DNA of 45,800 nt from Arcobacter sp. Lineage in GTDB: Bacteria > Acidobacteriota > Terriglobia > Bryobacterales > Bryobacteraceae. The stretch's first letter is position 1. Each line of letters starts with the position of its first letter. Shown in pieces: positions 17,290-34,735 of this stretch. Made by a program: the position numbers and the translations under genes. The stretch is taken from assembly GCA_020723085.1 (NCBI GenBank), contig DYJN01000005.1, positions 48,064 through 93,863 on the forward strand, written 5' to 3'. A model generated the notes under the pieces. The model saw only the letters and a program-made list of their open reading frames with translations. It was not told the origin of the DNA and searched no databases.

Positions 17290-17994
17290 TCATTCCGCTA
17301 GGCGATCCCGCCACCACTGCACAGAAACGCACAATCCCTTGGATCCGCTGATCCTCTGAATCACGCGGCGCCCCTGCTCCAGCTTCCAGGTCTCGATCGT
17401 GATCCTGTCCCCAAGCAACGCTTCTCCGATGTAGTCCGCCTGTAGCCGCAGCATCTTGTCCCACCCCGCCAATGTTTCGGCCCAGCCGATGTAGGCGGCA
17501 TTGTTGACGTGCTCGTTGATGTCCAGATCCTCTGCGGCCACTGCGCGGCGGTGCATTTCCGCCGGCGCCGGCGGCGCCTCGGGAATCGCCGTCAACCCGA
17601 TCCGCGTCTCCCGCGCGGGGAAGTCCAGCTCCAGCAGGAACCGCGGCAGGCGGACCGGCCGGCGGCGCTCGAGATCCACCATCAGCCACACTGTCGCCGC
17701 CTCCGCCAGCTTCTCGCCGGCCGCGGAGACGATTTCGAACTCGCGCCAGGCGCGCGCGCCCGCCGTACGGCGTGACGGCCAGGTGATCACTTCCAACGGT
17801 TCCTCAGGCTCGGGCCAGCGGCTCGCTGCCAGCCCGAACTGCGCCAGCATCCATGCACGGCCTTCGGCGCGCAGCGCCTCGATCCCCACCCCGAGCCTGG
17901 CCGCGTGAATTCCTGCAGCCTGCTCCAGAAGCCGCGCCATTGCTGCGGGTCCGCGCCCGTCCGCCCGGCACGCGATGCGGCAGGTCAGCTCCAC
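17290..17994 (-). CDS. Acyl-ACP thioesterase
   Basis: The enzyme hydrolyses acyl-acyl carrier protein to free fatty acid. The 234-residue product has the tandem hot-dog layout of the bacterial acyl-ACP thioesterase (FatA/FatB-like) family: an N-terminal hot-dog with AWMLAQFGLAASRWPEPEEP and VITWPSRRTAGARAWREFEI, and a C-terminal one holding DLDINEHVNNAAYIGWAE. H162 and N164 in that block correspond to the conserved catalytic-site motif. TIETWKLEQGRR near the end is also family-like. The ATG lies six bases downstream of the yqeY stop codon, so the two are probably one operon. Chain-length preference is unknown. Confidence 0.85.
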   Translation of the reverse strand: MELTCRIACRADGRGPAAMARLLEQAAGIHAARLGVGIEALRAEGRAWMLAQFGLAASRWPEPEEPLEVITWPSRRTAGARAWREFEIVSAAGEKLAEAATVWLMVDLERRRPVRLPRFLLELDFPARETRIGLTAIPEAPPAPAEMHRRAVAAEDLDINEHVNNAAYIGWAETLAGWDKMLRLQADYIGEALLGDRITIETWKLEQGRRVIQRISGSKGLCVSVQWWRDRLAE

Positions 17995-18000
17995 GGCCGT

Positions 18001-18447
18001 TCAGCCCAGCCGCGCCTTCACCAGGTCGCTGAGCCGCTTGCCGTCGATTCGCTTGCCCGCCAGCTTCGCCCGCGCCGCGGCGATCACCTGCCCCATCTGC
18101 TTCGCGCTCGCCGCCCCCGTCTCGCCGAGCGCCGCCGCCACCGCGGCGGCCATCTCTTCCTCGGTGGCCGGGGCCGGCATGTAGCCTTCGATCAGCTTCA
18201 TCTCGGCCTCTTCTTTCTCCGCCAGCTCAGGCCGCCCGCCCTGCCGGTACAGCTCGGCGGCGTCCTTCCGCTGCTTGATCAGAGAGTTCAGGACCTTCAA
18301 CTCGGCGGCCTCGTCGAGCGCCTTCATGGAGTCCACTTTCTCTTTCATCAGCGCCGCTTTCATCATCCGGAGCGTGGACAGCCGGGCCTCGTCGCGGGCT
18401 CTCATGGCCTCCGCCATGTCTTTTTGAAGCTGATCGAGAAGCGCCAT
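18001..18447 (-). CDS. yqeY: GatB/YqeY domain protein
   Basis: This 148-residue stand-alone YqeY protein is related to the tail domain of GatB, the amidotransferase that makes Gln-tRNA or Asn-tRNA. Its own role, perhaps tRNA binding, is not established. Seen: MALLDQLQKDMAEAMRARDEARLSTLRMM at the N-terminus (typical of the family), IKQRKDAAELYRQGGRPELA, EKEEAEMKLIEGYMP and the C-terminal GQVIAAARAKL with GKRIDGKRLSDLVK. The length is normal (about 150). A weak -10 (CAGGAT) ends seven bases before the ATG. It is the first gene of the pair with the thioesterase and is divergent from the aminotransferase gene (45 bases apart). Confidence 0.92.
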   Translation of the reverse strand: MALLDQLQKDMAEAMRARDEARLSTLRMMKAALMKEKVDSMKALDEAAELKVLNSLIKQRKDAAELYRQGGRPELAEKEEAEMKLIEGYMPAPATEEEMAAAVAAALGETGAASAKQMGQVIAAARAKLAGKRIDGKRLSDLVKARLG

Positions 18448-18460
18448 CTCTGGTATCCTG

Positions 18461-18466
18461 TAAACT
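18461..18466 (+). promoter_or_regulatory. -10-like hexamer TAAACT of the serine operon
   Basis: TAAACT lies 26 bases before ATG 18493, between the divergent yqeY and aminotransferase genes. Confidence 0.4.
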
Positions 18467-18492
18467 TATTTCTCCCTGATTTTCCCACAGCC

Positions 18493-19650
18493 ATGCATGT
18501 CAAGAAGCAACGACTCCTCACCCCAGGGCCGACGCCTCTGCTGCCTCGCGCCCTGCACGCCATGATGGCGTCCGACATTCATCATCGGACGCAGGACTTC
18601 ATCCAGTTATATCCGCGCGTGCTCGCCGGTCTCAAAGAGGTCTTCGGCACGCAGAACGATGTCCTCATCACCGTCAGCTCCGGCACCGGCGCGATGGAAG
18701 CCGCGGTCTCCAACTTCTTTAGTGAAGGCGACACGGTGGTCGTGCTGTCCGCCGGGAAGTTCGGCGAGCGTTGGGCGGAGCTGGCCAGAGCCTACCGCCT
18801 GAACGCTGTCGTGTTGACAGCCGAATACGGAGACGTCGTCAGCCCTGAGCGCGTCGCTCAGGCGCTCGAAGAAAATCCGGACGCCAAAGGCGTCTTCTTC
18901 CAGGCTTCGGAAACCTCCACCGGCGCCGCCCACGACGTACGCTCGATCGGCGGGATCGTCAAGCAGACCCAGGCGCTCTGCATCGTAGACGCGATCACCG
19001 GGCTCGGCACCATGCCTCTCGACATCGACGGCTGGGGGCTCGACGTCGTCATCGGCGGCTCGCAGAAAGCGTTCATGATCCCTCCCGGTCTCGCCTTCCT
19101 CAGCGTCAGCCCGAAAGCCTGGGCGCAGGGCGAAACCGCGCGGCTGCCGCGCATGTACTTCGACCTGAAACGCGAAAAGAAAATGGCCGCCAAGGGCGAA
19201 AGCGCCTGGACTCCCAACGTGAGCCATATCCTCGCCCTCGCCGAAGCTCTTGCCTACATCAAGCAGCTCGGCATGGCAAAGCTCATCGAAAACGCGCAGT
19301 CGCTGGCCCGCGCCACCCGCGCCGCCGCCGTCGAACTCGGCCTCGAACTGTTCGCTCCCGGCTCGCCGTCTTCTTCCGTCACCGCCATCAAGGCCCCCGC
19401 CGGCATGGATTCGGGCGAGATCGTCAAGGCGTTCCGCAACCAGTTCGGCTCGATCATCGCCAACGGCCAGGGCACGATGAAAGGCAGGATCTTCCGCATC
19501 GCGCACCTTGGCTACTTCGACTTCGCCGACCTGTTCGCCGTCGTCGCCGAACTCGAGCTCATCCTGCATCAGAAGGGACTGCCGGTCAGTCTCGGCCAGG
19601 GCGTGGCTGCCGTGCAGCGGACGTATCTGGAGGCCCTGAACGGGAAGTAG
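18493..19650 (+). CDS. Class V aminotransferase (alanine-glyoxylate / serine-pyruvate family)
   Basis: This 385-residue PLP-dependent enzyme is of the alanine:glyoxylate/serine:pyruvate aminotransferase type. Seen: LLTPGPTPLLPRAL at the N-terminus, TVSSGTGAMEAAVSNFF (cofactor phosphate-binding loop), IVDAITGLGTMPLDID with the conserved D166, and GGSQKAFMIPPGLAF, where K192 should bind PLP. It stops two bases before the serA start, so the genes are translationally close. The context indicates serine metabolism: it may serve as the phosphohydroxypyruvate transaminase in place of SerC, or use serine and glyoxylate. This is inference from the neighbour, not from active-site residues. Confidence 0.88.
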   Translation: MHVKKQRLLTPGPTPLLPRALHAMMASDIHHRTQDFIQLYPRVLAGLKEVFGTQNDVLITVSSGTGAMEAAVSNFFSEGDTVVVLSAGKFGERWAELARAYRLNAVVLTAEYGDVVSPERVAQALEENPDAKGVFFQASETSTGAAHDVRSIGGIVKQTQALCIVDAITGLGTMPLDIDGWGLDVVIGGSQKAFMIPPGLAFLSVSPKAWAQGETARLPRMYFDLKREKKMAAKGESAWTPNVSHILALAEALAYIKQLGMAKLIENAQSLARATRAAAVELGLELFAPGSPSSSVTAIKAPAGMDSGEIVKAFRNQFGSIIANGQGTMKGRIFRIAHLGYFDFADLFAVVAELELILHQKGLPVSLGQGVAAVQRTYLEALNGK

Positions 19651-23724: not shown

Positions 23725-26700
23725 TTACGGCGCGGCAGGAACGGTGAACGTGCCCATCAGCCTGCCGGAGCCGCAGGTCACCCGGTACCGGTATGTGCCG
23801 GGCGCCAGGCCGTCCAGCACGATCCGCCTCGTTCTGGGTCCGCCTCTATCGGCTTGGTCTCCGCTTTCATCGGACGTCGTAAAGTAGCTCGAAGTCACGG
23901 CGTACCGGCAGGCAGCCAGAGTGGGAGCCACATAGTGGATCTCCGCTTTGCCCGCCGAAACAAATACCTTCAGCCGGTACGGTTCAACCCGCGGAACCAG
24001 CGCATATCTCTGGTCAGTGGACCGGCGTTGAAGCCCGCTTCCCATCCCGATAGCCCGCTGATACGCCTCCAGCCCTGATCCCAGCAGCCCGTCCACGTCG
24101 TAGTATGTCGCCAGCGCATTCACCCAAAGATTCGGGTAGGTGTGCCCGGAGAGCGCATCCCCCATCGTCCTCCACTGTGTGCTTACGGCCGACGCAGTGG
24201 TGTGCGGCGCAGCCTGCGTACCCCAGATCCCACGCCCGCCGGGGCACACAGTCAAAGTGGTCGTCGATGTGCCCGCCGTGACCGTGCAAATTCGGATGAA
24301 CTCGTTGTCAATCTTGATCACCGAATCGCCGTAGCCGGACAGGGCGACGCAGCCGGTGGTTTGATTTTTGCAATTGATCGTCAACGACGTGGCTGACGAG
24401 GAGATGTCTGCTGTCAGCGCTACAGGCGGGTTCTGGGCATCAATCAATCGATCCCAGGTGGAGATGAGGCCCAGAAGATCCCCCGTCACGACTTGGTACT
24501 GCCCCCAGTGCAGAATCGGCTTCCTCGGATGCAGCATCCCATCCACGAAGAACCGCCCAAACCTTTCCCCGCTCTTCTCGAACAGGTAGCCGCTTCCCAC
24601 CGCCAGCGCCTTCGTCTGGCGCGCCCAGCCGACGTGCATGGCCCAGTAGCTCACCATCCACGGCGCCAGGCCAGAACCGCCGGTAATCCCGCCGTACGGT
24701 GCCAGTTGCCCGAGCCCCGTCAGTCCCAGGGGATTCGTCAGTCCCTGCACGGCGGAATATCCCTTGCACCACGGCGTGGCGCTGTACCCGTACTGCAAGT
24801 CCACCGCCAGGCTGTCTGTAGAACTGAGCGGTGTGCCAGACGCATCTTGGATAATCAAAGATGTTCCTGGTATCCAATACCACTGCTTCCCGGTTTCTTG
24901 TCCGTAAATGCCGACTGTCTGGGCCTGCCCATTCAGCGTGATGCTGTTGATTCCGTGCAAATTGACAAAGCCCGTCAGAGCGAAGATCTTCCTCTGTCCG
25001 TTCGGCGGGGACAATACATGACTGCTGTTCAATGTCTGGACATAGTGGTAGATGTAGCCCCCACGGCAGTCCGAGCTGACCTGGGACTGGTACAGCCCGT
25101 CGGTGATTCCAAACATCCCCTCATAGGCGGCGTCGCTGTTCTTCAGCTTGTTGGCTAGATAGTTGCGCTCCGGCGATTCCGGACTGAGAAGATAAGCCCA
25201 GATCGTTTCGCGCAAGAGCCGCGCCGGGATGCGCGGCTGATCGGGAGAGTGGAAAATCCCCCAGTCGTAGTGTCGGTTCCACCCGGGGTTGTCATACATC
25301 AGCCACCCGGCGGCTGACTGCTGCAGCGACATCAGATACGTCCAGCGCCCGGTGAGAATGTAGGGCAGGGAGAACAGCGATGGCCAGTGGGCGTGGTCGG
25401 CAATCCAGATGTGCGTGCGCGCCGGGCAGTTGGAGCAGATGTGCTGCGCTCCATACGAGCCGGATGTGTCGTACTGGCTGGAACGTGCATCCGGATGGGC
25501 GCTGATTGACTTGATGCGCCCGAAGGCTGGTGTCGTCTGATCGTTCGGCCAGTCGAGCCAGTTCCGTGTGTCTGGCGTGGCTCCGGTGATGCTTTCCCGG
25601 TAGTGGATAGGAATAGTGACGGCGGCGTCGCCTGACCCGATGATGAACTGGTCAAATGCCTGCTTCTTCGTGGCGACGCTGAACCGGCTGTCCCCCATCG
25701 CAAACAGGTAAAAGAGCTGGTATCGCGGAAGGATCCCGAAGTTGTCGCTGTCCCCGGTGCCCGACATGTCAGTCTTGATATACGCGCACGGGTTCTGTGT
25801 CGTGCAGCTCCGGGGGTCGGCTCTGGCGGCGTCATCCGTTCCCACATTCGCCGGCCACTTGCTTAAGTACGTCGACAGCGTGGCTGAGTCCAGTTGGATG
25901 TTCAGGTCGTACGGCGGGAGAATGCGGGTCGCTGCCAGGTACGGCAGGTTCCGGTCCGCCACCACGGCGCCCGGCTCGGTCCCGCTCCACCCGTAGTAGG
26001 AAGCAGCGGCTTTCTCATCGAGATCACAGTCCGTCTTCGAGTAGATGGCCGCCGCAGGATTGCCCGCCAGGAACTCCAGCTTGAGCTTCTGCCGCTGCAG
26101 CTTCCTCCACCACGAGTTCTCTACCCGGAAGCCCGTCTCCACGCCGTTCCAGCCGGGATAGAACGAGAGCTCGAACATCGGGTGGATGCTCTTGTAGGTG
26201 TCGCTCGACGGAGCTTGCCAGTTCGTACCATCCCACTGCCAGCCGAAGTCGTAGTCAAATCCGTTCTTGCGGGCGATGATCCGCGTCACCACCGGCCCGC
26301 GCAGCCAGTATTGCCAGTCGCCGTTGGCGATCATCGTCTTGGCATCCGCCCCGTACGTGATCGAATTGGCCGTGCCGCGGATCTGCGCGTTCCAGCCGCC
26401 GCCGAGAAAGTTCAGCATCCCGCCCTGATCCAGCGCCGCCGCCTCGCAGGCCGGCTGCCCGCCGAGATGGCAGGCACTCGGGTCCGGCACGAAATCGACC
26501 TTCACGCTGCCGTTGGCCGCCAGGGTCACAGGGAACGACACGAATGCCGACAGGATGCTGCCATCCGGCCACCGGCTCTTCACGTCCACTTGCCATGCAG
26601 GCGGCACAACACCGTCGATGCGCGGCTTCGGGAAGGCGCCGGAGGGGAACTCCCCCTGCATGAACAGCATCAGCACGGTGTAGGGCCGGTCCGTCTGCGC

Positions 26701-26790
26701 CGTTCCGGCAGCCTCGTAAATCCTGATGCTGTTGTCAAGCGCAAACAGCTGAGCCGCCGCCAGCAGCAGCCCGATGATTAGATTCCTCAT
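23725..26790 (-). CDS. Large secreted modular protein, RIFT-barrel-like, with tail-fibre-type and Fn3-like modules
   Basis: I do not know a function for this 1021-residue exported protein. After a signal peptide (MRNLIIGLLLAAAQLFA) comes a region at about 25-115 with FPKPRIDGVVPPAWQVDVKS and RWPDGSILSAFVSFPVTLAA, which resembles the RIFT-barrel domain of PcRGLX/YetA-like polysaccharide-active proteins. The middle (about 150-785) is tryptophan-rich and may contain an alpha-helical toroid (LLRETIWAYLLSPES). Residues 790-869 form a module seen in phage and adhesin proteins (IKIDNEFIRI, then GGRGIWGTQAAPHTTASAV). Residues about 932-1019 look Fn3-like (LDGLAPGTYRYRVTC). Many cysteines suggest disulfides. 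The ATG overlaps the upstream gene by four bases (ATGA), so translation is coupled. G+C is lower than in the flanks. Confidence 0.72.
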   Translation of the reverse strand: MRNLIIGLLLAAAQLFALDNSIRIYEAAGTAQTDRPYTVLMLFMQGEFPSGAFPKPRIDGVVPPAWQVDVKSRWPDGSILSAFVSFPVTLAANGSVKVDFVPDPSACHLGGQPACEAAALDQGGMLNFLGGGWNAQIRGTANSITYGADAKTMIANGDWQYWLRGPVVTRIIARKNGFDYDFGWQWDGTNWQAPSSDTYKSIHPMFELSFYPGWNGVETGFRVENSWWRKLQRQKLKLEFLAGNPAAAIYSKTDCDLDEKAAASYYGWSGTEPGAVVADRNLPYLAATRILPPYDLNIQLDSATLSTYLSKWPANVGTDDAARADPRSCTTQNPCAYIKTDMSGTGDSDNFGILPRYQLFYLFAMGDSRFSVATKKQAFDQFIIGSGDAAVTIPIHYRESITGATPDTRNWLDWPNDQTTPAFGRIKSISAHPDARSSQYDTSGSYGAQHICSNCPARTHIWIADHAHWPSLFSLPYILTGRWTYLMSLQQSAAGWLMYDNPGWNRHYDWGIFHSPDQPRIPARLLRETIWAYLLSPESPERNYLANKLKNSDAAYEGMFGITDGLYQSQVSSDCRGGYIYHYVQTLNSSHVLSPPNGQRKIFALTGFVNLHGINSITLNGQAQTVGIYGQETGKQWYWIPGTSLIIQDASGTPLSSTDSLAVDLQYGYSATPWCKGYSAVQGLTNPLGLTGLGQLAPYGGITGGSGLAPWMVSYWAMHVGWARQTKALAVGSGYLFEKSGERFGRFFVDGMLHPRKPILHWGQYQVVTGDLLGLISTWDRLIDAQNPPVALTADISSSATSLTINCKNQTTGCVALSGYGDSVIKIDNEFIRICTVTAGTSTTTLTVCPGGRGIWGTQAAPHTTASAVSTQWRTMGDALSGHTYPNLWVNALATYYDVDGLLGSGLEAYQRAIGMGSGLQRRSTDQRYALVPRVEPYRLKVFVSAGKAEIHYVAPTLAACRYAVTSSYFTTSDESGDQADRGGPRTRRIVLDGLAPGTYRYRVTCGSGRLMGTFTVPAAP

Positions 26791-27785
26791 CTAGCCCCCC
26801 AGTTCATCCAGAAGTACAGATGATCCAGTTCCACCATCTTTGCGGCCGCCTCGTCAGTCCTGATGCCGACAACAAAGGCTCTGGCCCAAAGATCCGCCAG
26901 GCCCGACGGCAATGTGATGTCGCAGCCGGATGGGCAAATGCTGCGCTCCGTGTCGTTGTCGACACGAATCCACATCTTGTATGGGATCGTGCCGTCGGAG
27001 CGGATCTTCAACGTGTGCCACGCTGTGCCGGGGGCCGCTCCGCTTGCCAGCGTCGTGCCCCAGGTGCCGCCGTCCGGATCCGCGTAATACACAAAGTTGG
27101 TGTCGGTTCCCCCGATATGCCGGATTCCGAAGCTGCGGTTCGGCACGCCGGCAAACGTGCCGCCCATTCCAAGGAAGAAAGTCGAATTCGTGGAATCCGT
27201 GGCTGCCGGAAACCGGAAGATGCACTGCAGTTCCCACTGCTTGTCGGTTTTGGCGTACAGGCTGTCGGCCGCAGAAGTGGCCGTAGCGAAGTGCGCGTAC
27301 CACGACTGCGTGTCGCCAGCGGTGGTTGAGGTCTGAATTCGGGTTGCACCGATTCTGTCGCTGGCGCTGGTGCTGTAGTTCAACTGCCCGGAGCCCGCCA
27401 TCCGGTAAAACGCAAAGTCTCCCAGGTACGCCGGCGAGTTCAGGCCGTAAGTGTTGCTGAACTCGCTCACCAGCGAAACATACTGCATCTGCGGCTTGCC
27501 GTCGTATCCTCCGCCGCCTTGCGCCTGCGTCCATGTGTTCGCCGCCGTGCAGAGATAGATGTTCTGCCCAGCCGCCGCGTCGGTCTTGAAGAAGGCCTGC
27601 CCGACGCTGCAGGTGGCAGGCAGCGATGCGCCTGTCTTTATCGGTGCTGTGGTAGCAGACGTCGAGAAGTCTACCACGTTAGCCCTCAGCGTCCCCAGTA
27701 TCTCCAGGCTGCCGTTCACCGTCACAGCCCACAGGATCGCCGCCGTCGAAAATGTCGCGGCCAGAATCCCCATCCATCTTCTCAT
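26787..27785 (-). CDS. Secreted lectin-like protein of the tail-fibre-type operon
   Basis: Unknown function. The 332-residue protein has a signal peptide (MRRWMGILAATFSTAAILWA), then the module LPATCSVGQAFFKTDAAAGQ with IYLCTAANTWTQ at about residues 55-90. A related module occurs in the next gene upstream (TCVAGEV with LYVCNSSGSWV). Residues about 95-332 are beta-rich and end in a likely jelly-roll (FGIRHIGGTDTNFVYYAD, WHTLKIRSDGTIPYKMWIRV, VELDHLYFWMNWG), similar in style to LamG/concanavalin lectins and phage tail proteins. GGGGGAG lies five bases before the ATG. The stop codon overlaps the start of the 1021-residue gene (ATGA), and the upstream gene ends 12 bases away. Sugar or surface binding is inference. 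Confidence 0.7.
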   Translation of the reverse strand: MRRWMGILAATFSTAAILWAVTVNGSLEILGTLRANVVDFSTSATTAPIKTGASLPATCSVGQAFFKTDAAAGQNIYLCTAANTWTQAQGGGGYDGKPQMQYVSLVSEFSNTYGLNSPAYLGDFAFYRMAGSGQLNYSTSASDRIGATRIQTSTTAGDTQSWYAHFATATSAADSLYAKTDKQWELQCIFRFPAATDSTNSTFFLGMGGTFAGVPNRSFGIRHIGGTDTNFVYYADPDGGTWGTTLASGAAPGTAWHTLKIRSDGTIPYKMWIRVDNDTERSICPSGCDITLPSGLADLWARAFVVGIRTDEAAAKMVELDHLYFWMNWGAR

Positions 27786-27797
27786 GATCGCTCCCCC

Positions 27798-29423
27798 TCA
27801 AAATCCGCGAACGATCCGGACGCTGTACGAAAGTCCGTCCGGGATGACCACGCTCGCCCCCGTCAGATTGCACAATCGGACCACTACCACATCTGTCCCG
27901 CTGTACATGCTCGCCAGCACTCCGGTTGGAAGGGATTCCGGAATCCCCGCCGCCAGCGTTTCCCCGCTTGCCGCCCCCGGCGCCGCAATGTTCAGCTCCG
28001 CGCAGCTCGCCGCCCCCAGCGTCCCAAAGCTCAGGCTCGCCGAATAGAACGTCTGGCTTGCCACGGCGCCTCCGCTTGCGATCCTCACCGGATCAGCCGC
28101 GGTCCCAGTCCCTTCCAGCCCCGCCCCAAAATACAGCGTCCCGCCGCACGGTCCGGAGGTCCCATCCGCCCTCACACAATCCGACGCCGTTCCGCTGACC
28201 ACGCCCAGCACTCCGTTCGTCAGCCGGGCGACGCCCGTCTCAGTGGCCCGTTTCAGCAGTTTGCCCGTCGCCCCTTGATACAGCGCCACCTCCCCGTCAG
28301 CAGCCCCCGCCGGTCCAGTCACATCGCCGCTGCCCGTTCCGCACGCCGCCCCCGCCGACACCAGGTTCCCGCTCGCGTCAAACTTCGCGCAGTCATCCGC
28401 CGCCGCCGTCCCGCTGAACAGTTGCAGCTTCGATCCATTCCCCTGCAACGCCGCCGGCGCTATCTGGCTCAGCGCCAATTGCCCGGCAATCTGGCTGAAA
28501 TCGTAGTCCCCTGCCTGCGCCGTCACCGCTCCCGTTCTTCCGAACACGGAACTTACCGCCCCGGAACCGGTGCCGCATGGCGCCCCCGCCGACACCAGGT
28601 TCCCGCTCGCGTCAAACTTCGCGCAGTCATCCGCCGCCGCCGTCCCGCTGAACAGTTGCAGCTTCGATCCATTCCCCTGCAACGCCGCCGGCGCTATCTG
28701 GCTCAGCGCCAATTGCCCGGCAATCTGGCTGAAATCGTAGTCCCCTGCCTGCGCCGTCACCGCTCCCGTTCTTCCGAACACGGAACTTACCGCCCCGGCG
28801 CCTCCGCCGCCTCCCGATGCATTCACCACGCACTTCCCTGACTGCGCCACCGCGAAATCCACTTGCACCCGGTTTTCATCCAGCACTCTGACCGCATCCG
28901 GTATCACCGCCTGCCCGCTCGTATCCGTGCATCCGATCAGCACACTTCTCGTCGCCAGATTGTGGCTCAGCGTCACCGACGTCGCAGCCGTGAAATCCAG
29001 GCTGAAGTTCGCGCCTGCGCCGCACGGCGCATTCGCCGACACCAGGTTCCCTTCGGCGTCGAATTGCGCGCAGTCGCCAGCCTGCACCGCCCCTCCCCCG
29101 AACGCCTGCAGCAACGCCCCTGTCCCGTTCTTGCCCGAGACCCCTGCCATTTCATTCAATGCGTGTCCGTGCGGCGCCGCCGCCACCCAGCTCCCCGAAC
29201 TGTTGCACACGTACAAACCCGCCCCGGCGCCTGCCACCGCCACCACTTCCCCCGCCACGCACGTTCCTGGCAGCGTGGTCACGATTCTCGCCGGCTTCGT
29301 CAGGGGAAACCCGCTGAAGTCCGCCTGCCGGCTCTGCGTCGGCAGGTGCACCGTGCTTTGCGCGAAACCCCATGCCATCCAACAGAGCGCCGCCCCTGTT
29401 CTCCAGATCGCTCTTCTCCGCAC
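27798..29423 (-). CDS. Secreted phage-tail-fibre-like protein with a duplicated 78-residue unit
   Basis: This 541-residue exported protein starts the operon. GTG 29423 follows AGGAGG by eight bases and encodes a signal peptide (MRRRAIWRTGAALCWMAWGF). A cysteine-bearing module (TCVAGEVV with LYVCNSSGSWVA) is followed by a beta domain typical of tail fibres (FTAATSVTLSHNLATRSVLI, then AVIPDAVRVLDENRVQVDFA). Two tandem copies of a 78-residue unit follow at residues 211-288 and 289-366, each starting AVSSVFGRTGAVTAQAGDYD, a phrase characteristic of phage tail-fibre proteins, and ending CGTGSG. A related half-unit (CAQFDAEGNLVSANAPCG) precedes them. The C-terminal part is again beta-rich. No phage structural gene is nearby, so this is a host-encoded adhesin-like protein rather than part of a prophage. 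Confidence 0.75.
   Translation of the reverse strand: MRRRAIWRTGAALCWMAWGFAQSTVHLPTQSRQADFSGFPLTKPARIVTTLPGTCVAGEVVAVAGAGAGLYVCNSSGSWVAAAPHGHALNEMAGVSGKNGTGALLQAFGGGAVQAGDCAQFDAEGNLVSANAPCGAGANFSLDFTAATSVTLSHNLATRSVLIGCTDTSGQAVIPDAVRVLDENRVQVDFAVAQSGKCVVNASGGGGGAGAVSSVFGRTGAVTAQAGDYDFSQIAGQLALSQIAPAALQGNGSKLQLFSGTAAADDCAKFDASGNLVSAGAPCGTGSGAVSSVFGRTGAVTAQAGDYDFSQIAGQLALSQIAPAALQGNGSKLQLFSGTAAADDCAKFDASGNLVSAGAACGTGSGDVTGPAGAADGEVALYQGATGKLLKRATETGVARLTNGVLGVVSGTASDCVRADGTSGPCGGTLYFGAGLEGTGTAADPVRIASGGAVASQTFYSASLSFGTLGAASCAELNIAAPGAASGETLAAGIPESLPTGVLASMYSGTDVVVVRLCNLTGASVVIPDGLSYSVRIVRGF
28347..28564. repeat. Tandem repeat copy A (218 bp)
   Basis: This 218-bp segment is identical, base for base as read by eye, to 28581-28798. 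The repeat period is 234 bp, i.e. 78 codons, so the reading frame of the tail-fibre-like gene is kept. It encodes the second of the two units in protein order. Confidence 0.92.
28581..28798. repeat. Tandem repeat copy B (218 bp)
   Basis: Identical to 28347-28564, from which it is separated by 16 diverged bases. It encodes the first unit (residues about 211-288). Perfect identity implies recent duplication or ongoing recombination. Confidence 0.92.
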
Positions 29424-29658
29424 TCTCTTTCCTCCTGCATCGCCGCCGGGCGGTATTCCCCGCGACCCGCATGAGAATTACCTGCCGCCCCTGCCCCTGC
29501 CCGGCTCCCTGCAACAGAATCCCTTCAAAATGAAGCGGAAACATTTTCCCCATCTCCTGTCACGCCTCCCCCTCCCGGCCCGCGCGCCTCTGTGTTACCC
29601 TCGGTTATACGGTGGGCTCCTGCGCCTCTGCGCCGCGCCCCCAAGGGAGGGGTTGTCT

Positions 29659-31056
29659 TTGACTGCCGACCCGCACCTTCAGTGCGGACACACGCTGCTG
29701 CCGGAGGATCCCGTCGGATCGCCGGCCATCCGTCTTCTCCTCATCGCCTACGCCTTCCCCCCCGTCGGCGGCATCATGGTGATGCGCGCCCTCAGCCTCG
29801 CCAAGTACCTCCCCGCTTGTGGCTTTCAGGTTCACGTCCTGTCCGCCGCCAATGCCGCCGCTCCGCTTCGCGATCCTGGTCTCCTCGCCCATGTGCCGCC
29901 GTCAGTGACCCTCCATCACGCCTTCACTCCGGAACTCCCCTTCCACTTCCGCAAACGCCTTTGGAATCTCGTCTCTGGACGCGGGGACGCCCCTCCGGCT
30001 CAGTCCCCCTCCGCGGCGCCACAGCCGGACTCCTGGCTCGCCAACCTCGCCCGCCGCATCTTCTCACCCGATCCTCAGGTCGCCTGGGTCCCCTTCGCCA
30101 CCTGGGCCGCCCGCCGCATCATCCGGCGCCATCGCATCCAGGCCGTCCTCGTCACCGCCCCGCCGTTTTCCACGTTCTTGATCGGCAACTCCCTCAAGTC
30201 CTCCTTGCCTCGTATCCGTCTCATCAGCGATTTCCGCGACGAGTGGCTCCGGTTCTACCTCACCGATTTCGACTTCCTCCGCAGCGATTTCACCCGGCGC
30301 CGAGCCGAGCAGATCGAGGCCCAAACCGTTTCTCTCTCCGATCTCGTCGTCGCCGTGACCGAGTCTTCTCTCCACGAAATCCGCTCCCGCTACCCCGGGC
30401 AGCCGGACGCCAAGTTCGCCCTCGTCCACAATGGCTACGACCCCGACGCCCTCCGCCCTCTCTTTGACAATCCTCCCATCCCCGCCGCCGGCCCCAAATC
30501 CAGGGTCGTCATCACCCACCTCGGCACCGCCTATCGCACCGCCTCCCCTTTGTATTTTCTGGACGCCATCCGGTCCCTCCCGGACGACATCCGCTCCCGC
30601 CTCGAGATCCGCTTCATCGGCCGCATCTCCGAGACCGAAGAGCGCCTCCTCGCTTCCTCCGGCCCCAACATCCGCGTCCTCGGCTTTCTGCCCCAGCAGC
30701 AGGCGCTCGCGTGGCTTGGCCGGACCGACTACCTCCTGCTCACCATGACCAATGAGTTCAGCCTGCCTGGCAAGCTCTTCGAGTACCTCGCCTCCGGGAA
30801 GCCCATCATCGCTCTCTCCCCCGAAAACGGCGAAGTCGCCCGCCTCATCGCCGAGGCCGGCGCCGGCTGGTGTGTCCCTCACGATCAGCCCGAAGCCATC
30901 CGCCGCGTCGTCGCCGGCGCCGTGCGCTGCGCCCTGGAAAACAACATCCCATTCCGCACCCGCCGCGAGGTCATCTCCCGCTTCGAGCGTCCCCGGCTGG
31001 TCGCCTCTTATGCCGCCCTCATCCGCGAACGCCTTTTCGCCGATGAAATACACTGA
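29659..31056 (+). CDS. Glycosyltransferase, GT4-like
   Basis: The 465-residue product is a GT-B fold glycosyltransferase that probably transfers a sugar to a lipid-linked glycan at the cytoplasmic side of the membrane. N-terminal blocks IRLLLIAYAFPPVGGIMVMR and ALSLAKYLPACGFQVHVLSA match the donor/acceptor Rossmann start of GT4 family members. The C-terminal domain has KFALVHNGYDPDALRPLF, LGFLPQQQALAWLGRTDYLL and NEFSLPGKLFEYLASGKPII, the usual nucleotide-sugar-binding end. The start is uncertain: TTG 29659 has GGGAGG eight bases upstream; TTG 29653 is also in frame. The next gene, a nucleotide-sugar dehydrogenase, begins 31 bases downstream. A 235-base region separates this gene from the divergent tail-fibre-like operon; it holds TTATAC at 29605-29610 as a possible -10 and nothing else I recognise. 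Confidence 0.83.
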   Translation: MTADPHLQCGHTLLPEDPVGSPAIRLLLIAYAFPPVGGIMVMRALSLAKYLPACGFQVHVLSAANAAAPLRDPGLLAHVPPSVTLHHAFTPELPFHFRKRLWNLVSGRGDAPPAQSPSAAPQPDSWLANLARRIFSPDPQVAWVPFATWAARRIIRRHRIQAVLVTAPPFSTFLIGNSLKSSLPRIRLISDFRDEWLRFYLTDFDFLRSDFTRRRAEQIEAQTVSLSDLVVAVTESSLHEIRSRYPGQPDAKFALVHNGYDPDALRPLFDNPPIPAAGPKSRVVITHLGTAYRTASPLYFLDAIRSLPDDIRSRLEIRFIGRISETEERLLASSGPNIRVLGFLPQQQALAWLGRTDYLLLTMTNEFSLPGKLFEYLASGKPIIALSPENGEVARLIAEAGAGWCVPHDQPEAIRRVVAGAVRCALENNIPFRTRREVISRFERPRLVASYAALIRERLFADEIH

Positions 31057-31087: not shown

Positions 31088-32410
31088 ATGACCGGACAGA
31101 ACTCCACCGCCCCCCATCGCGAACTGCTGCTCGAAAAGATCCGTTCCCGCAACGCCCGTGTCGGGGTCGTCGGCCTCGGCTACGTCGGCCTCCCTCTTGC
31201 CGTCGAGTTCGCCGGGGCGGGCTTCCACGTCACCGGCATCGACGTCTCTTCCCGCAAGGTCGACCAGATCAATACCGGCCTCAGCTACGTCCAGGACATC
31301 CCTTCCTCCGAGGTGCGCCGCCTCGTGGACAAGGGCCTGCTCCACGCCACCACCGAGTTCTCCGCCATCTCGGAACTCGACACCATCAACATCGCCGTCC
31401 CCACGCCGCTGCGCAAAACCAAGGACCCCGACATGAGCTTCGTGGTTGCCGCCGCCCAGGCTGTCGCCCGGCACATCCACCCGGGTCTCCTTGTCATTCT
31501 CGAATCCACCACCTACCCCGGCACCACCGAGGAGCTCCTGCTCCCCATGTTCGAAGCCTCCGGCCTCAAGGCAGGCCGCGACTTCTTCCTCTGTTTCTCC
31601 CCGGAGCGCGTCGATCCAGGAAACCCCAAGTTCCACACCCGTAACATCCCCAAGGTCGTCGGCGGCCTCACGCCCGCCTGCACGGAAGTCGGCGCCGCCT
31701 TCTACTCCATGGCCCTCGAAACCGTCGTCGCTGTCAGCAATACAGTCGTCGCCGAGATGGTCAAGCTCCTCGAGAACACTTTCCGCATGATCAACATCGG
31801 CCTCGTCAACGAGCTCGCCGTCATGTGCCACCGCATGAACATCAACGTCTGGGAGGTCATAGACGCCGCCGCCACCAAGCCTTTCGGCTTCATGCCCTTC
31901 TACCCCGGGCCCGGTCTCGGCGGCCATTGCATCCCCATCGACCCCTTCTACCTCTCATGGAAGTCGAAACAGGCCGGCATCGAGGCCCGCTTCATCGAGC
32001 TCGCCGGCCACATCAACGGCGACATGCCCCGCTATGTCGTCTCCCGCATCCAGGACGCCCTCAACGATCAGGCCAAGTCTCTCAAAAACTCCCGCATTCA
32101 TGTCCTCGGCGTCGCCTACAAGCGCGACATCGACGACGTCCGCGAATCCCCTGCCCTCGATGTCATCCACCTCCTCCTCCAGCGCGGTGCATCCGTCTCG
32201 TACTCCGATCCTTACGTCCCGGAACTGCGCCTCGACTCAGTCGCGCTCCAGGCGCAGCCCCTCAGCGCCGCTGCCTCCTGCGATTGCGCCGTCATCCTCA
32301 CCGACCACCGCGCCTTCGATTACGACGCGCTCGTCCGCACCGCCCCCCTCATCTTCGATACCCGCAACGCCCTCCGCGGGCGCACCGACTCCCACATCCT
32401 CCGCCTCTAG
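31088..32410 (+). CDS. wbpA: UDP-N-acetylglucosamine 6-dehydrogenase-type nucleotide-sugar dehydrogenase
   Basis: The enzyme oxidises the C6 of a UDP-sugar to a uronic acid with two NAD. The 440-residue product has RVGVVGLGYVGLPLAVEFAG (residues 24-43, with the GxGxxG of the NAD site), NIAVPTPLRKTKDPDMSFV, ILESTTYPGTTEELL, CFSPERVDPGN, KVVGGLTP and GPGLGGHCIPIDPFYL, where C281 is the catalytic cysteine. VAYKRDIDDVRESPALDVI near the end is also typical. The SPERVDPGN and GGHCIPIDP forms favour the WbpA/WecC-like branch (UDP-GlcNAc or UDP-ManNAc) over UDP-glucose dehydrogenase. The precise sugar is not certain. The deacetylase gene starts three bases after the stop codon. Confidence 0.85.
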   Translation: MTGQNSTAPHRELLLEKIRSRNARVGVVGLGYVGLPLAVEFAGAGFHVTGIDVSSRKVDQINTGLSYVQDIPSSEVRRLVDKGLLHATTEFSAISELDTINIAVPTPLRKTKDPDMSFVVAAAQAVARHIHPGLLVILESTTYPGTTEELLLPMFEASGLKAGRDFFLCFSPERVDPGNPKFHTRNIPKVVGGLTPACTEVGAAFYSMALETVVAVSNTVVAEMVKLLENTFRMINIGLVNELAVMCHRMNINVWEVIDAAATKPFGFMPFYPGPGLGGHCIPIDPFYLSWKSKQAGIEARFIELAGHINGDMPRYVVSRIQDALNDQAKSLKNSRIHVLGVAYKRDIDDVRESPALDVIHLLLQRGASVSYSDPYVPELRLDSVALQAQPLSAAASCDCAVILTDHRAFDYDALVRTAPLIFDTRNALRGRTDSHILRL

Positions 32411-32413
32411 CTC

Positions 32414-33289
32414 ATGACCAACATCCTCACCGTCGACGTCGAGGACTACTTCCATCCCACGGAAGTCCAGCGATCGGTCGACGCCTCTTCCTGGGATTCC
32501 CTCCCCTCCCGCGTCGTCCAGGCCACTTCCATCGTCCTTGATCTGCTCGGCGAAGCCCGCGTCTGCGCCACCTTCTTCGTCCTCGGTTGGGTCGCCCGGC
32601 GCCACCCCGCACTCGTCCGCCGCATCGCCGGCAGCGGCCATGAAGTCGCCTGCCACAGCTTCTCTCACCCGCTCGTCTATTCCCTCACTCCCCAGCAGTT
32701 CCGCGAGGACACCCGCACCGCCGCCGACGCCATCGCCCAGGCCGCCGGCTCAGCTCCCCGCGCCTATCGCGCTCCCAGCTTCTCCATCACGGCGCAGTCG
32801 CTCTGGGCGCTCGAAATCCTGCTGGAGTGCGGGTTCTCCACTGATTCCAGCATCTACCCCGTCCGCCACGACCGGTACGGCATCCCAGGCCGGCCCGCCT
32901 TCCCCCATCTCATCCCGACGCCCTCCGGCCCCATCCTCGAAATCCCTCCTGCCGCCGTCCCCCTTACCGCGCGCATCCATGCGCCCGCCGGCGGCGGCGC
33001 CTATCTGCGCCTCCTGCCCTTCGCCTACCTCTCATCCGCCATTCGGCTCCTGAACGAGTGCCATCAGGCGCCCGCCTGCATCTATGTCCACCCTTGGGAA
33101 TTCGACCCCGCCCAGCCTCGCATCGCCTCCGGCGCCCTCTCCCGCCTGCGGACCTATCTCGGTCTTCGCTCCATGTCGCGCAAACTCGTCCGCCTCCTCC
33201 ACGCCTTCCCGTTCGATTCGATGGCGCGCGTCTGCCCTCCCGGTGCAGCCTATCCCGCCGCCCCGATCCGCTCCTCTCCCCGAGCTTAG
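32414..33289 (+). CDS. Polysaccharide deacetylase with DUF3473-like end
   Basis: This 291-residue carbohydrate esterase 4 (NodB-like) protein is of the type found in exopolysaccharide/exosortase loci. Seen: ILTVDVEDYFHPTEV, with the metal/catalytic D8, TFFVLGWVARRHPALVRRIA, HEVACHSFSHPLVYSLTP with the metal ligands H81 and H85, YRAPSFSITAQSLWALEILL and STDSSIYPVRHDRYG. The C-terminal region with IYVHPWEFDPAQPRI matches the DUF3473 extension. It probably removes acetyl groups from an N-acetylated sugar in the polysaccharide made by this operon. No signal peptide is evident. Its stop overlaps the stop of the convergent beta-barrel gene by four bases. Confidence 0.86.
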   Translation: MTNILTVDVEDYFHPTEVQRSVDASSWDSLPSRVVQATSIVLDLLGEARVCATFFVLGWVARRHPALVRRIAGSGHEVACHSFSHPLVYSLTPQQFREDTRTAADAIAQAAGSAPRAYRAPSFSITAQSLWALEILLECGFSTDSSIYPVRHDRYGIPGRPAFPHLIPTPSGPILEIPPAAVPLTARIHAPAGGGAYLRLLPFAYLSSAIRLLNECHQAPACIYVHPWEFDPAQPRIASGALSRLRTYLGLRSMSRKLVRLLHAFPFDSMARVCPPGAAYPAAPIRSSPRA

Positions 33290-34674
33290 AACCGGAACGC
33301 CGCCAGGCTCGGCGTCCACGTCAGGTTCGCCGAGACGAACCGCTGCCATCTCCTCGGAGCCGCCGCCGTCTCGTAGAACGAATACCCCCCGTTGATCCCG
33401 AAATGCAGGTCCCCAACCACGCGCAAGCCGGTCGTCGCCGCCACTGAGCCGCTGTCCAGCGTCGTTTTCTCAAGCAACCCGCTCCACCGGTAGTAGCCGC
33501 CGAACAGTCCCACGCTGAATCGCCCGAAACTCCTGCCGGCAGACCCGAAAACGCTGTCCCGCCTTGATGCCAGGATCACTCCATTGCCCGGATTCAGTCC
33601 GTGGACGTAGCCCAGCGACACTCCCCACTCCTGCCACCGCCGGTGGATCGCCGCCTCCCCCGACCAGCCCGAGTACGATCTCTTCTGGATTTCAAGCTGC
33701 CTCTGCACTCCCAGCAGTTCCGCCACTGCCGGATCTACTTCCACCGTGCCCAGGAAAGTCGTGTTCATCCGGTAAACCCCGCCTCCCAGAGACACCGACG
33801 TAGTCGGCGTCAACTGGTGGGACACTTGCAGGCTGGCAAATTGCGCCCGGTTTTCGCCAAACACCTTTGGGTAGGAAAACTGGCTGAAGCCGTAACTCAC
33901 GCTCACCGCCGTCCGCGGTCCCGGCTGGTATGCCGCCCCCCCGAAGACTCCCGCGGAGTTCAGATCCCTCAGCCCCGATCCGCGCCGTCTCACAAATCCT
34001 GCCTGCGCTCCTCCTCCGAACGACCACCGCACGCTGGGCCGGAAATTCACCCCGCCTGATGTCCCGTAAAAGTTCACGCGCGTCCCGAAAATCTCGTTGT
34101 CCACCAGCCCGTTGCCCCCCAGATCCGTCAGTTGACTGCCGGCCAGCCCCGCCAGCGGCGCCATCGCCGCGCCCGTCACGCCCCAGCCCCCGAAGGCGCC
34201 CGCCGGCGCCCCGTATCCGAATCCGCCCAGGCTCGATCCCGCGAATTGGGTCGCATACACCCCCACCCTCTGCGTGGCTTGGTGGCTCACCGAAAAACCC
34301 ACCACCTGGCTCATCCCCGATATGCCTCCCCTCCCGGACCACCGCTGGTAACTTGCCGTGTAGAAGCCTCCAAGCGAGGTCCGCTCCCAGCTTTTGGCGC
34401 CGCTCACGCCCGCCGCCCCGCCATACCCGTAAAAGTCCCGGCTCCCTCCTGCCAGGCTCTGCTGCCCCACGGTCTCCGTGTAACTCCCCTGCGCGGACAG
34501 CCACGGCCGGAACGCAATCCGCGACGGCGGCGTGCTGCCACTGTCGATCCCGGCGCCTCCGGCCCCCAGGATGCCTCCCAGGCCCCACTGCCCCCATGCA
34601 CCTCCGCACCCGCACGTCACCAGCAGAACCAGAATCTGCCAGCCCTTCCCGGCAGCGATCATCGTCCTTCTCAT
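33286..34674 (-). CDS. Predicted outer-membrane beta-barrel protein
   Basis: I do not recognise a named family. The 462-residue product has a signal peptide (GWQILVLLVTCGCGGAWG, after a basic start) and then about 400 residues of amphipathic strands with alternating Gly and aromatics (RIAFRPWLSAQGSYTET, GVYRMNTTFLGTVEV, VGLFGGYYRWSGLLEK). The last residue is Phe after SLAAFRF, the usual signal for barrel assembly by BamA. Together these support an integral outer-membrane protein. GGAGG lies six bases upstream of ATG 34674; an upstream in-frame start at 34710 is less likely. It converges on the polysaccharide operon, and such barrels often accompany exopolysaccharide export, so that role is plausible but not shown. 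Confidence 0.72.
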   Translation of the reverse strand: MRRTMIAAGKGWQILVLLVTCGCGGAWGQWGLGGILGAGGAGIDSGSTPPSRIAFRPWLSAQGSYTETVGQQSLAGGSRDFYGYGGAAGVSGAKSWERTSLGGFYTASYQRWSGRGGISGMSQVVGFSVSHQATQRVGVYATQFAGSSLGGFGYGAPAGAFGGWGVTGAAMAPLAGLAGSQLTDLGGNGLVDNEIFGTRVNFYGTSGGVNFRPSVRWSFGGGAQAGFVRRRGSGLRDLNSAGVFGGAAYQPGPRTAVSVSYGFSQFSYPKVFGENRAQFASLQVSHQLTPTTSVSLGGGVYRMNTTFLGTVEVDPAVAELLGVQRQLEIQKRSYSGWSGEAAIHRRWQEWGVSLGYVHGLNPGNGVILASRRDSVFGSAGRSFGRFSVGLFGGYYRWSGLLEKTTLDSGSVAATTGLRVVGDLHFGINGGYSFYETAAAPRRWQRFVSANLTWTPSLAAFRF

Positions 34675-34735
34675 TCCCGTCCTCCTTCGGAAACCGCGGG
34701 GCGCACGCATCCCGCTGTCGCAGCGTGCTTTCCCA

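Follow-up and report, generated by a model that had tools for sequence, protein, structure and literature searches.

A putative exported exopolysaccharide-processing operon with phage-type modules, found in Acidobacteriota and in phage records

To our knowledge, phage enzymes that depolymerize exopolysaccharide (EPS) are mostly virion-bound spikes, and the tail fibre and tailspike proteins of virions lack an export signal. The nearest precedent for the locus described here is WceF of Pantoea stewartii, which PMC7949094 presents as a stewartan hydrolase from an EPS cluster with a phage tailspike-like fold. Our locus is a three-gene operon in a stretch of 45,800 nucleotides (nt) from a member of the Bryobacteraceae (Acidobacteriota), namely, positions 48,064 to 93,863 of contig DYJN01000005.1 in assembly GCA_020723085.1. 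This whole stretch is referred to as the window and positions are given in it; handles with G, C and L are our own for genomes, contigs, and loci or records. We consider it probable, with moderate confidence, that the operon is an exported EPS-processing set that has been traded between hosts and phages.

Three adjacent open reading frames (ORFs) of 541, 332, and 1021 residues lie on the minus strand, as the original prediction from the window's sequence had it. Gene 1 (27798-29423) has a GTG start and codes for a repeat protein that resembles tail fibres and has a conserved C-terminal domain, gene 2 (26787-27785) codes for a protein with an N-terminal LPATCSVGQAFFKTD...CTAANTWTQ module and a C-terminal domain, where a jelly-roll-like region had been predicted, and gene 3 (23725-26790) codes for a putative exported polysaccharide lyase or hydrolase, so described from its homologues and predicted structure. 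Homologues of genes 1 and 2 are present in relatives and in viral contigs. Direct reading of the sequence confirmed that genes 1 and 2 are spaced by 12 nt, with GGGGGAG preceding the ATG of gene 2, and that genes 2 and 3 overlap by ATGA.

The alignment of gene 3 proteins has 24 rows (17 bacterial and 7 viral), and in it the core corresponds to residues 20-590, 669-785, and 879-925 of the window protein, split by two inserts. Residues G424, S428, H468, G481, R506, R520, E557, and G558 are invariant in all 24 rows. The N-terminal part of the core, residues 20-290 (25921-26733, minus strand like all features within the operon), is a predicted RIFT-barrel-like domain with 10-residue means of the predicted local distance difference test (pLDDT) between 64 and 93. 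The first 13 PDB matches of the N-terminal half in Foldseek were all chains of PL26 exo-rhamnogalacturonan lyases (E 3e-5 to 5e-4). VIA, which covers its own listed structures and so leaves room for PDB families beyond that list, gave four PL26 entries with Z of 9.6-9.8 at 9-10% identity, the best with a root-mean-square deviation of 4.6 over 413 residues, and the next groups were GH38 (Z 6.2) and GH127 (Z 6.1). The RIFT-barrel-like region that had been predicted is thus supported by fold. Residues 300-596 (25003-25893) make up the first part of a helical, toroid-like region that was recognized by conservation in the alignment and is modelled with low confidence, and residues 669-786 (24433-24786) continue this helical core according to the alignment and the model. 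Over its 413 residues the PL26 alignment reaches into the helical half, where pLDDT is low. The whole-protein model was poor (pLDDT 57) and its VIA list was filled by the Fn3 end. Below-threshold matches to PcRGLX_1st (PF19501) were seen in 3 of 16 and in 2 of 18 gene 3 members, the best having E of 0.02-0.03. A search of BFVD gave three matches at 0.001 or better, all of them uncharacterised phage proteins, and no convincing match to the whole core. From these models, gene 3 appears to represent a family without annotation whose N-terminal half is PL26-like, that is, a RIFT barrel plus helices.

Both inserts have relatives among phage-type proteins. Insert 1 (residues 597-668; 24787-25002) is found in 7 of the 24 rows, four from the genus of the window and three from viruses. 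Protein matches from a scan of genome contigs showed that it is shared with two tail-region proteins, one in Paenibacillus and one in Caldicoprobacter, whose upstream neighbours are tail tape-measure proteins; these two proteins have no PHROGs family match of their own. Insert 2 (residues 787-878; 24157-24432), with a minimum length of 77 residues, occurs in 13 of the rows, including all 7 viral and 6 of the 17 bacterial ones. It matched phrog_7578 (5e-6, unknown function) and phrog_1101 (2e-4, a tail family), and its structure matches, which are middling (Z 8.9-9.2), were to the Klebsiella K1 capsule lyase, the JBD30 baseplate, and a Vibrio phage capsid chain. It contains the module GGRGIWGTQAAPH, which had been singled out before and is of the phage tail or baseplate type by these PHROGs and structure matches. 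The C-terminal domain (residues 931-1021; 23728-24000) is Fn3-like, as had also been anticipated, with a structure match of Z about 10.

The best PHROGs match of gene 1 is to a family of unknown function (2.4e-14), followed by virion structural protein (2.2e-9) and tail fibre (7.9e-7) families, in agreement with the tail-fibre phrases noticed in its sequence. A match of gene 1 to PF25599 (Ephrin) was below its cut-off and was ignored. Comparison of the gene with itself revealed a near-perfect tandem duplication, two copies of 234 nt that are 97% identical (28333-28800), which suggests a recent change of repeat number in a fibre-like protein. When the operon was compared with that of sister species, where synonymous sites are near saturation, the ratio of non-synonymous to synonymous divergence (pN/pS) was 0.23-0.31 for gene 1, 0.40-0.54 for gene 2, and 0.24-0.41 for gene 3, and that of four flanking genes was 0.05-0.36. 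Judged from these ratios, the operon is under constraint, and genes 2 and 3 diverge faster than most flanking genes.

The genomic setting links gene 3 to EPS. By our own reading of the maps, 15 of the 20 bacterial gene 3 loci have an exosortase or an XrtA-system homologue at most about 10 kb away, a count that draws on locus maps, the exosortase list, and a tblastn match to a deacetylase in the G001 locus (74% over 281 residues). The neighbours scanned with NCBIfam were representatives, the others being homologues by BLAST; the XrtA-type O-ligase TIGR03097 (four members scanned, all over cut-off), FemAB TIGR03019, and the deacetylase TIGR03006 were over cut-off, and the amidotransferase TIGR03108 and the tyrosine kinase TIGR03018 were below it. 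Co-occurrence was examined in 101 genomes, the window's own and its relatives, with a further count by genus because genomes of the same genus are not independent. Gene 3 had matches in 14 of these genomes and 13 were counted, G037 being removed because its match was limited to insert 2. At 182 bits or more, a limit chosen after the scores were seen, TIGR03097 was present in 13/13 genomes with gene 3 and 4/88 of the others, and by genus in 9/9 and 4/74 (Fisher p 2e-9); on a looser list at 1e-20 it was in 13/13 and 21/88 (p 1e-7). Among the bacterial loci, that of G050 (L086) has at 5285-6169 a gene that by position is the exosortase (G050:C7:87332-88039), and this lies within about 2 kb of the cluster of the three genes together with FemAB-like and O-ligase genes.

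Within the genus, all three genes are between the same neighbours in G001, G002, and G004, and in G003 the locus is cut by the contig end. Outside the genus, genes 1 and 2 neighbour gene 3 in some loci. The order in G050 is gene 1, gene 3, gene 2; on contig C222 of G015 two other called genes are located between genes 2 and 3; on contig C96 of G057 gene 1 adjoins gene 3; and the remaining mapped bacterial loci outside the genus have gene 3 without both gene 1 and gene 2. Among 396 genomes drawn evenly from the phylum, at least three had a gene 3 match at 1e-8 (the window's own, G392, and G394), a lower bound since two candidates were scored per genome. The three-gene order, whose recurrence had been proposed as a check, does recur, in members of the genus and in viral records.

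Scans of IMG/VR found gene 3 in ten records, eight of which are distinct; L103 and L104 were left uncounted because their match statistics, rather than a full alignment, equal those of L102. Seven of the eight records have capsid, packaging, or tail genes and the eighth, L120, has an integrase. The record of L099 codes for a tail sheath stabiliser, a gp32-like single-stranded DNA-binding protein, and a tail fibre; L109 and L102 (record L111) each have terminase, portal, and major head genes; L101, which holds the first 236 residues of gene 3 only, has major head and endolysin genes, with a terminase in L113 of the same record; L116 has a homologue of the head protein of L101 (62% identical); L100 (record L114) has a terminase; and the record of L105 has a terminase domain just over its cut-off (22.1 bits against 22). 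Gene 2 is directly upstream of gene 3 in six of the eight records, with a 4-nt overlap in L099, L105, L109, and L116. A gene 1-like gene is upstream in seven; that of L105 shows weak similarity (E 8e-11) and is separated by some genes, and genes 1 and 2 of L116 have a called ORF of 145 residues between them. Contamination or misassembly is an unlikely source of the L099 copy because the operon there has the low GC content of its own contig (0.37-0.38, and 0.18-0.22 at third codon positions), whereas the window operon has 0.61-0.67 and 0.77-0.79, respectively. The original prediction had set the operon apart from phage genes, and this holds within the window but not beyond it, given these eight records; phage structural genes just outside the window had been named as evidence that would count against a separate system, and the viral relatives were found, but elsewhere.

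A further gene near gene 3 is 67% identical between the G015 contig (L077:6290-6943) and a phage record (L100:5425-6006), and therefore the sharing exceeds the three genes. The record of L105 has two more tail-fibre-like genes (L112:15562-19274), of which the one at 17340-19274 passes the signal-peptide rule described below and its partner is signal-peptide-like by eye only. Among named phages, there was one 48-residue match for gene 1, no match for gene 2 at 1e-3, and none for the window gene 3 at 1e-5. The helical core of gene 3 was found among them only in EBPR siphovirus 1, where gp39 matched by hhalign (E 6e-32, 317 columns) and adjoins gp40, annotated 'glycoyl hydrolase'. A distant homologue of the core is encoded on the Skermanella rosea plasmid pSR-1 (L130:14713-17319), annotated as a calcium-binding protein and located beside plasmid partition genes.

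Export was assessed with a crude, home-made rule for Sec signal peptides which, for the viral copies, tries start codons over the first 60 codons. A Sec signal peptide had been predicted for each of the three genes; in the window genes 2 and 3 pass the rule but gene 1 fails, and its start, MRRRAIWRTGAALCWMAWGFAQS, resembles a signal peptide by eye. A signal-peptide-like start was found in 8/8 viral copies of gene 3 versus 21/175 other genes of the same records, a control in which some of the 21 passing genes adjoin the operon and from which three passing genes beside gene 3 (two in L100 and one in L120) were excluded.

The tree of gene 3 has 28 rows, with EBPR siphovirus 1 and the protein of the Skermanella plasmid serving as the outgroup. 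The earliest branches are bacterial copies that mostly belong to EPS clusters, with modest support at several of these forks, and a supported clade of 16 rows (98/97) contains 7 viral and 9 bacterial copies. A single clade of the seven IMG/VR rows was rejected by the approximately unbiased test (p-AU 1.3e-44). L099 nests inside the genus of the window (97/93 in the outgroup tree; in the first tree it stood beside the genus with weak support, 77/53) and the G015 copy nests among the viruses (100/100). Since one viral copy lies within a bacterial genus and one bacterial copy lies among viruses, the tree points to exchange between phages and bacteria in both directions; its root is its weakest part because the two outgroup rows are long branches that meet. 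The recruitment from phage-type parts that the original prediction suggested is borne out for the modules, but according to the tree the core looks like an enzyme of bacterial EPS clusters that passes into and out of phages.

Based on these findings, we propose that gene 3 codes for a PL26-like polysaccharide lyase or hydrolase that would cut the XrtA/PEP-CTERM-type EPS of these bacteria, and that genes 1 and 2, together with the phage modules in gene 3, would provide multimerisation and glycan-binding surfaces, as in phage tails. The three proteins, if exported by Sec, might act as a complex. In bacteria the set would trim or remodel the cell's own polymer, as WceF is thought to do, and in phages the set with its signal-peptide-like starts would be exported from the infected cell and loosen the host EPS in trans; the set would have passed between host loci and phages on more than one occasion. 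A glycan-directed, apparently secreted operon with phage-type parts, as envisaged from the window's sequence, is in keeping with these results. We put forward more tentatively, as an idea we hold to be somewhat less than probable, that phages infecting EPS-coated bacteria possess a multi-gene operon for EPS processing whose products are exported and act in trans from the infected cell, either clearing a way through the slime for progeny or changing it to the detriment of rival phages, and that hosts took this operon back into their chromosomes and phages retook it, such that one mobile enzyme set serves both. If true, a phage set with signal peptides would act outside the virion, from the infected cell, and this would change the view of how slime-coated bacteria are infected. 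The operon would moreover introduce a family of putative enzymes that cut EPS and are linked to the XrtA system, a family for which Pfam, NCBIfam, and PDB give no sequence match over threshold, and it would clearly exemplify genes moving both ways between phages and the chromosomes of their hosts. It seems that a tool for dealing with the slime of bacteria is being traded between them and phages.

Several observations weigh against the proposal that the operon is an exported EPS-processing set exchanged as such. The PL26 match covers part of gene 3 and the Foldseek TM-scores are low (0.20-0.22 of the query), the model of the helical half is poor (mean pLDDT 64.8; 44-65 across five models), and sequence searches of Pfam, NCBIfam, and PDB with gene 3 gave no match over threshold. 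Because of these low TM-scores, the 9-10% identity, and the lack of a sequence match over threshold, we did not file gene 3 as PL26. As for export, 5/7 viral copies of gene 1 and 5/7 of gene 2 pass the rule, some of the misses coming from uncertain starts, and gp39 of EBPR siphovirus 1 is without a signal-peptide-like start. Phages thus carry members of the gene 3 family that have an export signal as well as members that lack one, and other phages may therefore use the enzyme on the virion. The link to XrtA is weakened by the post hoc bit limit and by the 5 of 20 loci without a nearby XrtA gene (G003 at a contig end, G054 contig C309, G057 contig C67, the 4-kb G006 contig C72, and G394). Exosortase (TIGR02602) says little, being present in 63/101 genomes including all 13 with gene 3 (in G026 the match is partial, below cut-off, and close to a contig end), and in the window genome the TIGR03097 gene (contig C41) and the exosortase (C45) are on other contigs than the operon (C33). 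Finally, Mantel tests across 13 loci, weakened by shortened rows (a 237-residue gene 3 at a contig end and two 196-residue gene 2 products), gave for genes 2 and 3 a rho of 0.02 (1967 of 5000 permutations as high), for genes 1 and 3 a rho of 0.36 (257), and for genes 1 and 2 a rho of 0.55 (37). Without three sister species the respective values were -0.14 (3679), 0.20 (906), and 0.37 (426). The idea that the three genes move as one unit is contradicted by this unmatched divergence of genes 2 and 3; since their pairwise similarities are uncorrelated, the genes have not always moved together.

A non-catalytic role was considered, in which the three proteins form a surface scaffold that tethers or cross-links EPS and the PL26-like domain is a lectin. 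The several binding-type modules would fit this, as would the lectin-like agglutination by WceF of its polymer that is described in PMC7949094. However, the polar residues S428, H468, R506, R520, and E557 are invariant in all 24 rows, as expected of an active site, and the distant phage homologue gp39 adjoins a gene annotated as hydrolase; we regard a scaffold as unlikely. A scavenging enzyme, with which the cell would feed on foreign rhamnogalacturonan-like polymer of plants or fungi by degrading it, is doubtful to a greater degree. Although a pectin-active PL26 enzyme has the nearest solved fold and the listed neighbours of the Skermanella plasmid homologue include no EPS gene (the plasmid gene table being incomplete), gene 3 co-occurs with the XrtA ligase family, most of its loci are among EPS assembly genes, and no sugar-import gene was found among the ten window neighbours scanned with Pfam.

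Two other explanations start from the phage copies. A decayed prophage, of which the operon would be the leftover receptor-binding cassette, is favoured by related cassettes beside tail or endolysin genes in viral contigs, for example in L099 and L101, and by the G015 copy, which nests within viral copies. But the 31 other window ORFs, in a scan that omitted three small called ORFs, matched 15 PHROGs families at E 1e-5, of which none is a named structural family and 10 are unnamed; no PF04860 portal match was found in the assembly; the operon has the same position and the same neighbours in genus members with both flanks visible; and its frames are intact with pN/pS below 0.55. A prophage remnant, already judged unlikely in the original prediction, is therefore largely refuted and, in our estimate, very improbable. 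Alternatively, in temperate phages the set could be a lysogenic-conversion or superinfection-exclusion operon, the altered EPS of the lysogen costing rival phages their receptor. Both records for which a candidate was tested, those of L102 and L120, have an integrase, signal peptides would allow a lysogen to export the proteins, and the faster divergence of genes 2 and 3 than of most flanking genes fits an arms race. On the other hand, L099 carries gp32-like, gp59-like, and sheath genes, which we take to be of the kind seen in lytic T4-like phages, and about 1 kb upstream in L101 there is an endolysin gene, a position where expression is usually late; we regard this explanation as unlikely.

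The operon of the window diverges from a plus-strand series of genes, namely, an ORF with a GT4-type glycosyltransferase (28927-31056; ORF list, Pfam scan, and locus maps), a UDP-glucose/GDP-mannose dehydrogenase (31088-32410, by Pfam scan), and an XrtA-system polysaccharide deacetylase (32414-33289, a profile match to TIGR03006 above cut-off). Because the listed glycosyltransferase ORF overlaps gene 1 antisense, its true start is probably near 29.6-29.7 kb. Next to the deacetylase, on the minus strand at 33286-34710, is a gene for a 474-residue protein without Pfam, NCBIfam, or PHROGs match; it is kept beside the deacetylase in the genus and is near a deacetylase homologue on contig C81 of G006.

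In a search of the open PMC literature, no paper among the matches listed named these genes or a signal-peptide-bearing phage EPS operon. The XrtA/PEP-CTERM EPS system (PMC1569441; TIGR03006, 03019, 03097, and 03108) is the setting that gene 3 mostly shares, being near its genes and with a strong TIGR03097 match in all 13 genomes, and a term search of the main text of PMC1569441 did not return the word 'lyase'. Unlike the proteins sorted by that system, the products of genes 1 to 3 have, by eye and with no model run, no PEP-CTERM tail, their C-termini being VRIVRGF, MNWGAR, and TFTVPAAP. With the PL26 exo-rhamnogalacturonan lyases (PDB 5XQ3 group; Pfam PcRGLX) gene 3 has in common a predicted RIFT barrel and perhaps the helical region that follows it, but it differs in its 9-10% identity, in falling short of the Pfam gathering score and having no family match over threshold, in its two phage-type inserts, and in its genomic context. 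Phage tailspikes and EPS depolymerases resemble it in being phage-encoded, gp39 of EBPR siphovirus 1 sharing the helical core, and like virion tail fibres and tailspikes the viral copies are encoded with phage structural or packaging genes in 7/8 records, which the window copy is not; the signal-peptide-like starts of 8/8 viral copies, absent from gp39, set them apart. The phage-borne GH32 levan fructotransferases (PMC4595243) are likewise phage enzymes predicted to act on EPS and to be secreted, but they have no signal peptide by that paper's own account and belong to another enzyme family. Closest remains WceF (PMC7949094), an enzyme from an EPS cluster that has an export signal and a phage-like structure and whose presumed role is to trim or reorganise the polymer of its own cell; its fold is a trimeric beta-helix, whereas the core of gene 3 models as a RIFT barrel plus helices and not as the parallel beta-helix of tailspikes, and here the enzyme would be part of a three-gene operon that is also present in phage records.

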